From positions 62,001-126,000 of the forward strand of contig JACIWW010000005.1 in the NCBI GenBank assembly GCA_014360905.1: a DNA stretch of 64,000 nt, written 5' to 3'. The notes beneath the pieces were generated by a model. That model was not told the origin of the DNA. It did not search any database and worked only from the letters and a program-made list of their open reading frames with translations. Of the stretch, positions 57,720 through 61,005 are shown piece by piece. Source of the DNA: Chloroflexota bacterium (GTDB lineage: Bacteria > Chloroflexota > Anaerolineae > UBA2200). The position numbers were made by a program, and so were the translations under genes. Each line of letters opens with the position of its first letter. Position 1 is the first letter of the stretch.

Positions 57720-60566
57720 TCATGCTCTGCTAGGGCTAGGCGCACTCCGCGCTTGGCGAGATAGGATCCACTTGGCCAACTCGGCAGCAATGGATGGGAT
57801 TAGCGTCAGAGGCAGGATGGTTAACCAATCGCGCAAGGGCAACTCAAAAGTGTAGAAGATGGGCTCGAGCAGCGGCAAATAGACCACAGCCAGCATAAGC
57901 AAGAATGAGCTGAGCGTAGCCCAAACCATATAGCGATTGCTAAAAACGCCAAGTTTGAGCAAGGGATAACGCTCCGAGCGCGACGTGTAAGCCCGAAATA
58001 GTTCGGCTGAAATGAGGGTGACGAAGGCGATCGTTTGTGCTGCGATCAAGGAATCCGGGTAAAGGCGCAGGCCAAGCACGAATCCACCTAGCGTGGATGT
58101 GGTGATAGCCACTGCCTGAACGGTGGTGTTCCAGATCATTTCGCGGTTGATAATTGGTTCGCGCGGCGGGCGTGGCGGCCTGTCCATGATATCCGGTTCA
58201 CCTGCCTCCAGCCCCAAGGCTAAGGCAGGCAGGCCATCGGTGACGAGGTTCAGCCACAGAAGGTGGATAGGACGTAATGGTATAGGTAAGCCCGCCAACA
58301 TGGAAAGGAATATGACCAAAATCTCGCCAACATTACAGGACAGCAGGTAGTAGACAAATTTGCGAATATTGGAGTAGATGATGCGTCCTTCCTCAACGGC
58401 GGCGACGATAGAAGCAAAGTTGTCGTCGGTAAGGATCATGTCGGCGGTCTCCTTGGCTACATCAGTGCCCGTAATGCCCATGGCAATGCCGATATCGGCC
58501 CTTTTCAGGGCAGGGGCATCGTTTACTCCGTCGCCCGTCATGGCTACTACATGGCCAATCGTTTTCAATCCATCTACAATGCGCACCTTATGCTCTGGCG
58601 AGACACGGGCATAAACGTCCACATTGCCTACGACTTGGATAAAATCCTCATCGCTTATCCGATCCAGTTCTGATCCGGTAAGAGCCAGGTGACCACTGGT
58701 AAGAAAGTTTAGCTCTTTGGCGATGGCAACGGCTGTATCTTGATGGTCACCTGTAATCATCACCGCTTTGATTCCTGCTCGCCGGCAGGTAGCAACAGCA
58801 TCATAGGCCTCAGGACGGGGTGGGTCGATCATACCGGTCAGGCCCAGGAAGACCAAGTTGCGCTTTTCAGTCCAATCCAGCGGTTTTCCCTCGTGTATTG
58901 GGCGATAGGCTACTGCTAGCACACGCAATGCCTGGCTGGCCATGGCGTCGTTGGCCGCGAGGATCTTGGAGCGCATCTCCTCTGTCAAGGGGCGCAACTG
59001 CCCATCATCTTGAACGTGACTGCATAGTTGCAGCAAGATATCCGGAGCACCCTTGACATATGCTCTGAAGGGAGGATTCTCTCCATGCACAGCGTGTACT
59101 GTGGTCATGCGCTTGCTGGCAGAATCAAATGGCACTTCCGCCACACGCGGCTGCTCTTTTTCCAATTGCTCTCGCCACAGGCCCGCCTTTGCCGCGAGCA
59201 CTACGAGAGCGCCTTCCGTGGGATCGCCGACCATGCGCCAGCTCTCTTTTGCTTCGCTGTTGTTCTGCTCAATGCGCTCCAGATGCGCATCATTGCATAG
59301 CAGGGCACCTTGTAGTAGGAGCCATAGTGGTGGGATAGAGCGTGGCTCAACGGGCTGGCCATCCAATTTGAATTCGCCATATGGGGAGTATCCTTGGCCA
59401 GTAACATGATATAGCTTGTCATTAACCCAGACCTGGGTTACGGTCATTTCATTTTGGGTCAATGTGCCTGTCTTGTCGGAACAGATTACAGTAGCGGTGC
59501 CGAGCGTTTCCACAGCAGGAAGACGGCGCAGCAGTGCATGCCGGCGAACCATGCGCTGCATGCCCAAAGCCAAACAGATGGTCACCACGGCAGGCAGTCC
59601 TTCGGGCACAGCCGCAATGGCCAAACTGATAGCAGTCATGAACAACTCCAGGATTTCCCCTTGATGAGTGCTAAAGTACGAAACAAGTCCCTGGGTGAGG
59701 ACAACACCTGGCTGCGTATCACGAATGATACCTATCAAGAAGATGAGGCCGCAGATAGCCAGCGCAGCGGTTCCTAATACCTTGCCTAACTCGGCCAGGC
59801 GCCTTTGCAGCGGCGTCTCCTCGGCACTGACCGAGCTCAGCATCTGGGCGATCAACCCGAACTGGGTATGCATTCCCGTTGCGGTAACAATGCCCTTGCC
59901 ACGACCGTAGGTCACCACGGTACCCATGAAGGCGCTATTGCTGCGGTCTCCAACTGGGATATCGGCATCGAGCACTACCGAAGCGTTCTTTTCAACGGGA
60001 GTAGATTCGCCTGTCAGCGAGGCCTCCTGAATGCGCAGGTTGACACTCTCGATCAGACGCAAGTCCGCAGGGACATTGTTGCCCGCGGTGAGCACAACCA
60101 GGTCACCAGGAACCAATTGCTCCGATGGGATGGTTTCCTGGTGGCCATCGCGAATGACCACTGCAGTGGGAGCAGCCATGCGCTTTAATGCCTGCAGTGA
60201 TTTTTCGGCGCGCCATTCTTGAAGCACTCCCAGCACTGCATTGATGGTGACAATGGCGAGAATAGCGGCTGCATCAACCCACTCGCCAATGGCCATCGAA
60301 ATCAGGGCTGAAGCGATCAGCAGCAATACTAAAAAGTCCTTGAATTGATCAAGGACGAGCTTCCAAAAAGAAACGCCTGCCGCCTCTTGTAACTTATTGG
60401 GGCCATAGATTGCCAAGCGCCTTTGCGCTTCTTGTGTGCTCAGCCCGAGATTGAGATCCGTGTGTAGGGCGCGGACTAGGGTATCCAATGGCTGGGCGTG
60501 CAATTTAGCCGAGCCATTGGGCAGCTCTTCATTATGTCTGGCTGCGGTTGTCTTGTTATTTGTCAT
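57720..60566 (-). CDS. P-type cation-transporting ATPase (PMR1/SERCA type), Mn2+ export candidate
   Basis: A 948-aa type IIA/B pump. TGESTPVEK is the actuator motif, AVPEGLPAVVTICLALG the M4 ion-binding region, VICSDKTGTLTQNEM the phosphorylation site and MTGDGVNDAPALKRADIG the hinge. In M5-M6, NVGEILVIF and NLVTDGLPALALGLE supply further ion ligands, as in Ca2+/Mn2+ pumps. The start is ATG 60566 with CAGGAG seven bases upstream; a longer frame from 60587 is not favoured. A yybP-ykoY riboswitch precedes it, so Mn2+ is the likely cargo and inducer. Ca2+ transport is also possible. Confidence 0.93.
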   Translation of the reverse strand: MTNNKTTAARHNEELPNGSAKLHAQPLDTLVRALHTDLNLGLSTQEAQRRLAIYGPNKLQEAAGVSFWKLVLDQFKDFLVLLLIASALISMAIGEWVDAAAILAIVTINAVLGVLQEWRAEKSLQALKRMAAPTAVVIRDGHQETIPSEQLVPGDLVVLTAGNNVPADLRLIESVNLRIQEASLTGESTPVEKNASVVLDADIPVGDRSNSAFMGTVVTYGRGKGIVTATGMHTQFGLIAQMLSSVSAEETPLQRRLAELGKVLGTAALAICGLIFLIGIIRDTQPGVVLTQGLVSYFSTHQGEILELFMTAISLAIAAVPEGLPAVVTICLALGMQRMVRRHALLRRLPAVETLGTATVICSDKTGTLTQNEMTVTQVWVNDKLYHVTGQGYSPYGEFKLDGQPVEPRSIPPLWLLLQGALLCNDAHLERIEQNNSEAKESWRMVGDPTEGALVVLAAKAGLWREQLEKEQPRVAEVPFDSASKRMTTVHAVHGENPPFRAYVKGAPDILLQLCSHVQDDGQLRPLTEEMRSKILAANDAMASQALRVLAVAYRPIHEGKPLDWTEKRNLVFLGLTGMIDPPRPEAYDAVATCRRAGIKAVMITGDHQDTAVAIAKELNFLTSGHLALTGSELDRISDEDFIQVVGNVDVYARVSPEHKVRIVDGLKTIGHVVAMTGDGVNDAPALKRADIGIAMGITGTDVAKETADMILTDDNFASIVAAVEEGRIIYSNIRKFVYYLLSCNVGEILVIFLSMLAGLPIPLRPIHLLWLNLVTDGLPALALGLEAGEPDIMDRPPRPPREPIINREMIWNTTVQAVAITTSTLGGFVLGLRLYPDSLIAAQTIAFVTLISAELFRAYTSRSERYPLLKLGVFSNRYMVWATLSSFLLMLAVVYLPLLEPIFYTFELPLRDWLTILPLTLIPSIAAELAKWILSRQARSAPSPSRA

Positions 60567-60651
60567 GATGTATCTCCTGGCAATCAAAAGTCACACGATA
60601 TTTCCTATGCCAAGCTTTCATATTACAGCGCATGCCTAAAGGGCTTTGCGT

Positions 60652-60810
60652 CAAAAGACCTTCGGCTCTTCCGCAGACAACAGAAGAAACCGAAGGTCTC
60701 GCTTATTAGTAGAGCGCATTGGAAACCCCTATATTTGCTCTACCAACCAGCGGGCCGGGCGACACGCGCCGTGCTGACGGCCTCGCTGTGGGAAGCTACT
60801 CCCCTTCGCA
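60652..60810 (-). ncRNA. yybP-ykoY (manganese) riboswitch with terminator/antiterminator
   Basis: On the minus strand the aptamer shows GGGGAGTAGC (60804-60795), CCGTCAGCACGG, GCCCGGCCCGCTGGTTGG and GCGAGACCTTCG, the conserved pieces of the yybP-ykoY class in order. The 5' CGAAGG can pair with the 3' CCTTCG (aptamer P1). The same 3' strand can instead pair with downstream CCGAAGG, giving AGACCTTCGG/CCGAAGGTCT (60699-60690 with 60665-60656) followed by four T, a terminator. Mn2+ binding would favour P1 and read-through into the P-type ATPase gene 85 bases downstream. Confidence 0.88.
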
Positions 60811-60863
60811 TGCTCGTCATAGATCCGCAGGAGTCACTGCCTTGTGCTCCCCTGCTTGAAAGG

Positions 60864-60937
60864 TAGCGCATGGGGGATTCGAACCCCCGATCTCCTCCTT
60901 GAGAGGGAGGTGTCCTAGGCCGCTAGACGAATGCGCC
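60864..60937 (-). tRNA. tRNA-Glu (anticodon CUC)
   Basis: A complete cloverleaf on the minus strand. The acceptor stem pairs GGCGCAT with ATGCGCT (one G-U), the anticodon arm CCTCC-CTCTCAA-GGAGG gives anticodon CTC, and the T arm is GGGGG-TTCGAAT-CCCCC. The CCA end is not encoded. It lies 53 bases upstream of the riboswitch on the same strand. Confidence 0.95.
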
Positions 60938-61005
60938 ATACAACAACAAACATTGTAACCGCAAAATTTCGCTTTGTCAAATTTTCATGGCTCGGGTTGG
61001 TCTTG

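Follow-up and report, generated by a model that had tools for sequence, protein, structure and literature searches.

A yybP-ykoY-type riboswitch of compact form behind a tRNA-Glu gene in Chloroflexota and its proposed role as a shared conditional terminator

In the 64,000-nucleotide stretch of DNA analyzed here (the window), a gene for a P-type cation ATPase is preceded on the minus strand by an RNA element of the yybP-ykoY class, and directly upstream of this element lies a tRNA-Glu gene (Table 1). We think it likely that the element is a Mn2+-sensing three-way-junction switch that uses the promoter of the tRNA-Glu gene and acts as a conditional terminator, the tRNA's included, with high Mn2+ allowing expression of the ATPase. 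Under this model, RNA polymerase would initiate at a single promoter ahead of tRNA-Glu(CUC) and transcribe first the tRNA and then the aptamer. When Mn2+ is low, a downstream hairpin would take the 3' strand of P1.1 and transcription would stop at UUUU; the conditional terminator would thereby also end the transcript of the tRNA. When Mn2+ is high, L1 and L3 would dock and so stabilize P1.1, the terminator could not form, and polymerase would read on into the ATPase gene, whose product would remove Mn2+ and probably also Ca2+. Comparison with relatives established the homology of the aptamer, its covarying helices, a conserved overlapping terminator, and the tRNA–aptamer–ATPase order, with no promoter-like or terminator-like site between the tRNA and the aptamer. 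Such an arrangement offers a plausible route by which a stress-response pump could be driven from an always-on tRNA promoter, with a metal sensor as conditional terminator.

Table 1. Features of the proposed unit, in the order of transcription (positions in the window)
Feature	Position	Strand	Remarks
Promoter-like site TTGACA-17-TACAAT	60952..60980	-	11/12; no other strong site precedes tRNA, riboswitch, and ATPase
tRNA-Glu (anticodon CUC)	60862..60937	-	ARAGORN; Rfam tRNA 62.7 bits
Spacer from tRNA to aptamer	60811..60861	-	Sequence diverged among relatives; neither promoter nor intrinsic terminator recognizable
yybP-ykoY (Mn2+) type aptamer	60689..60810	-	Three-way junction without P2; model R2 78.5 bits, model R1 116.8 bits
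P1.1 5' strand CGAAGG	60803..60808	-	Partner of CCUUCG 60696-60691
P1.2 5' strand	60794..60796	-	Pairs with 60701-60703; both sides changed in relatives
P3.1/L3/P3.2 arm	60748..60788	-	P3.2 is GGCG/CGCC; L3 with UCA, invariant A at 60775
P4 hairpin	60706..60746	-	Length variable
P1.1 3' strand CCUUCG	60691..60696	-	Common to aptamer and terminator
Intrinsic terminator GACCUUCGG...CCGAAGGUC-UUUU	60653..60698	-	-27.5 kcal/mol alone
P2-type cation ATPase (PMR1/SERCA-like)	57720..60566	-	Start ATG 60566 after AGGAG

The original prediction had assigned this RNA to the yybP-ykoY class and had named the public covariance model as a check. That check failed on the window copy at every threshold tried: RF00080 gave no match at its gathering cut-off (45 bits, a database cut-off rather than a biological criterion), at E ≤ 1 (401 bases), or at E ≤ 10 (151 bases). 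Across 199 genomes of the class, none passed the cut-off and 11 had weak matches, while relatives within the window's family were matched below threshold (L011 with 22.9 bits, E 0.0076; L005 with 15.3 bits, E 1.4). We therefore turn to models rebuilt from the group itself. R1 was made from six family members and used to search the phylum and the class; 26 matches outside the family were placed in a model-guided alignment (A7), and R2 was built from A7 alone. R2 matched the window with an E-value of 1.6e-16, its sole match in the 64 kb, and it also recovered two riboswitches that lie above the Rfam cut-off (L096 and L105). The 26 loci were mostly picked with R1, although four (L020, L023, L024, L030) were first found with the Rfam model; because most were chosen with a model of the window's family, the selection behind R2 is not entirely independent. 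In A7, 94.9% of cells are paired, and 187 cells are changed on both sides, where shuffling gives 57.7 and sliding no more than 39; some P2/P3 regions in this alignment (L050, L102) look misassigned by eye. MAFFT alignments of the P2-containing loci (A4-A6) misplaced P3.2 and were discarded in favor of A7, and DNA-similarity matches L010 and L012-L019 were rejected as having no aptamer. Only one such element was found in the window's genome.

We read the failure of RF00080 as a limit of that model, because relatives match it below threshold and R2 finds both kinds of element, and because none of the 199 class genomes passes and the part of the RF00080 consensus that is printed holds no 3' GCGAGACC block. 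One side of L1/P1.1 seems to be lacking from the public model. The class assignment is upheld by the held-out R2 match and covariation, by the conservation of the terminators, and by the families of the downstream genes, and by these comparisons the window RNA is a real riboswitch of the known yybP-ykoY class, in a compact variant. In a large bacterial group, this Mn riboswitch class escapes the public Rfam model, while the rebuilt models find it before the expected transporters.

All conserved aptamer blocks had been predicted to occur in order on the minus strand, and all were found there: CGAAGG (60808-60803), GGAGUAG, CCGUCA (60780-60775), AAGCGAGA, and CCUUCG(G) (60696-60690). The internal loop L1 (GGAGUA/GAGA) is present between P1.1 and P1.2, and L3, between P3.1 and P3.2, reads GUCA. 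The CA of the L3 UCA is invariant in 10 aligned sequences, and by homology its adenosine would be the counterpart of A41/A48 in solved structures. The folding energy of the leader is -79.4 kcal/mol; dinucleotide shuffles give -57.0 ± 4.2 (z -5.3, 0/200). At the tip of P3 the minimum-energy pairing was mispaired, and the comparative P3.2 was taken instead. Crystal structures of yybP-ykoY RNAs have a four-way junction (PMC6754395, PMC11087558). In the window aptamer, only about 6 nt occupy the position of P2, which leaves a three-arm junction, and 14 loci outside the family likewise have at most 7 nt there, many of them preceding TerC or GDT1 genes. Because P2 is missing, as in these 14 loci, we file the window element as a three-way-junction variant rather than the canonical form.

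The claim that the 3' strand of P1 alternates between aptamer and terminator was also borne out, as both pairings were found. In the terminator stem, GACCUUCGG (60698-60690) pairs with CCGAAGGUC (60665-60657), followed by UUUU (60656-60653), and a terminator overlapping the 3' strand of P1.1 was present in 7/7 leaders examined. In L054, a C replaces U in this strand and is matched by a G in both partner strands. For the full window leader, the terminator fold (-80.9 kcal/mol) is favored over the fold with P1.1 forced (-64.5 kcal/mol), which fits a switch that needs its ligand for the ON state. The published mechanism of the class is transcriptional ON with Mn2+ (PMC6754395, PMC11087558), and by analogy both Mn2+ as ligand and the ON polarity would apply at this locus. 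A close likeness is to the Lactococcus lactis switch upstream of yoaB (PMC11087558, PMC9190785), in which the 3' strand of P1.1 is also shared with an intrinsic terminator. The ON response was established by experiment for yoaB and is a matter of modeling here; moreover, the L. lactis switch has a four-way junction with P2, whereas the window element has three arms at its junction and lies directly behind a tRNA-Glu gene. A different pattern is seen in the leaders of L034, L035, L038, L044, and L045, where the 3' strand of P1.1 can pair with a GGAG immediately ahead of the start codon and the terminator U-run is mostly absent; this suggests translational rather than transcriptional control at these loci.

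The original prediction mentioned neither the tRNA-Glu neighbor nor that the riboswitch apparently lacks a promoter of its own. The tRNA-Glu(CUC)–aptamer–ATPase order is found in 6/6 sampled family genomes, representing all four sampled genera, with 22-56 nt between tRNA and aptamer; one of the six tRNAs (L008) was missed by ARAGORN at an N-containing gap and found by Rfam. Each genome, including that of the window, has one tRNA-Glu(CUC) match over the cut-off. All six have an 11/12 sigma-70-like site at an equivalent position ahead of the tRNA, and their spacers contain no T-run terminator and no sigma-70-like site of at least 8/12, in a search by the sigma-70 consensus that may miss Chloroflexota promoters. 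Outside the family, many copies of the same tRNA, though not all, have an ordinary terminator behind them (for example, L070, L071, L073, L079, L081-L084, L087, and L091). Because no promoter of the riboswitch's own is in sight behind the tRNA, the switch probably also serves as the terminator of tRNA-Glu. The transcription unit is then likely to consist of tRNA, conditional terminator, and pump, and from the sequence layout we infer a single transcript across tRNA and mRNA. Operons that join tRNA and mRNA are known in bacteria, as in thrU-tyrU-glyT-thrT-tufB of E. coli, where tRNAs and a protein gene are under one promoter. The proposed unit would share this feature, judged by its layout, and would differ in having a metal-sensing conditional terminator between the tRNA and the coding sequence. 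No described tRNA–riboswitch unit was found in the literature searched, which included few subscription papers; as a matter of gene layout the linkage is conserved, and it appears to be undescribed.

The association of the switch with a P-type ATPase had been predicted as well, and the downstream gene families and the conserved gene order support it. Behind related RNAs, 45 proteins were read, and 40 of them are members of cation-transporter families (16 TerC, 13 P-type ATPases, 6 GDT1, and 5 Na/Ca exchangers). None of the four other P-type ATPases in the window's genome was found with such a switch. The window ATPase carries DKTGTL, TGES, TGDGVNDAP, and a membrane cation site, and is nearest to PMR1/SERCA-type pumps: it scores 705.4 with TIGR01116 (SERCA-type), above the cut-off of 703.4, and 779.2 with TIGR01522 (PMR1-type), below the cut-off of 798.3. 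It retains E322, N745, E748, N773, T776, D777, and E855, which we take, from their roles in SERCA, to be the residues of both Ca2+ sites; E748 and E855 differ from LMCA1. Since SERCA-type site residues are kept, we prefer a Mn2+/Ca2+ pump, which is probably a better description than a pure Mn2+ exporter, with the substrate read from sequence. The Mn2+ exporter of the earlier proposal is therefore better called a probable Mn2+/Ca2+ pump. The model for this reading is pneumococcal MgtA, a Mn2+/Ca2+ pump as described in PMC11434433. There, a yybP-ykoY switch controls a Ca/Mn-type P-type ATPase in Streptococcus pneumoniae (mgtA; Martin et al. 2019, as summarized in PMC11434433); the likeness between the pumps is one of type, from that description, and the summary makes no mention of a tRNA neighbor in the passages concerned. 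Among the other genes behind riboswitches, some encode proteins of about 93-97 aa whose match to the TerC profile is confined to its first half (L034 1622-1903, also L035-L038, L044, and L045; L041 1882-2175), perhaps half-size TerC proteins that dimerize. Unusual targets behind Mn-type aptamers, if real, are genes for an MgtC-family protein (L049 1601-2158), a neutral zinc metallopeptidase (L066 632-1327), and a response regulator (L048 1673-2353).

Other readings of the locus place the weight elsewhere. The riboswitch could have its own promoter outside the sigma-70 consensus, perhaps inside the tRNA gene, and the tRNA would then be an incidental neighbor. Chloroflexota promoters are poorly known, in L106 a 10/12 promoter does lie ahead of the riboswitch, behind a tRNA 3' fragment, and a terminator separates tRNA-Phe from the riboswitch in L103. 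However, the short family spacers are diverged and lack even an 8/12 site, while the site before the tRNA is kept in every family member and the gene order in every sampled genus, so we regard a separate promoter as quite unlikely. It is very unlikely, in our estimate, that this aptamer, though of yybP-ykoY architecture, senses another divalent ion, such as Ca2+, and that the ATPase is a Ca2+ pump. Variants of yybP with changed ion specificity are anticipated in PMC7266159, the pneumococcal switch is called Mn/Ca-sensing in PMC11434433, and the conserved SERCA-type sites and the Na/Ca-exchanger targets would suit such a ligand; against this, L3 UCA and L1 GGAGUA/GAGA are kept, and most other targets (TerC, GDT1, P-type ATPases) are linked to Mn2+ in other bacteria. 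Finally, the absence of any Rfam match in the window could be taken to mean that there is no riboswitch and that the hairpins arose by chance, with an ordinary terminator behind the tRNA, but this is scarcely credible, being refuted by the held-out R2 match and the covariation, and also by the downstream transporter families and the conserved overlapping terminators. The Mn2+ switch that shares the tRNA-Glu promoter thus remains our preferred reading.

A pattern scan of GTDB genomes for tRNA–riboswitch neighbors found similar arrangements in other lineages, although the pattern is rare (3/301 sampled phylum genomes). A tRNA-Lys gene is followed by a Mn switch and an exchanger gene in L099, and is also the neighbor in L026 and L029; tRNA-Leu and tRNA-Val genes precede a Mn switch and a P-type ATPase gene in L107 (Chloroflexi GWB2_49_20) and L102 (Actinobacteria), respectively. 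A weaker case is that of Selenomonas montiformis (L103 5868-6079, minus strand), in which tRNA-Phe is followed by a terminator, a Mn riboswitch, and a GDT1-like gene, with no clear promoter between the tRNA-Phe and the riboswitch. A broader proposal would be that a metal riboswitch replaced the tRNA terminator, that Mn2+ sets both read-through to the pump and the making and maturation of the tRNA-Glu precursor, and that tRNA promoters (Glu, Lys, Leu, Val) were taken over repeatedly; we consider this tentative and rather unlikely. Several matches of the scan were set aside: L097 and L101 are tRNA-Pro genes, GGGGAGTAGC being the tRNA-Pro 5' end; L096, L100, L105, L108, and L110 are riboswitches, but a tRNA was not recognized at that place; and L094, L104, L109, L111, and L112 show, on visual inspection, nothing that suggests a riboswitch. 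In Rubrobacteraceae (L106 1071-1252 and 7738-7811), a Mn riboswitch follows what by eye resembles the 3' half of a tRNA-His, with a complete tRNA-His some 6.5 kb farther upstream; this is the layout that would be left if an element had integrated into the tRNA.
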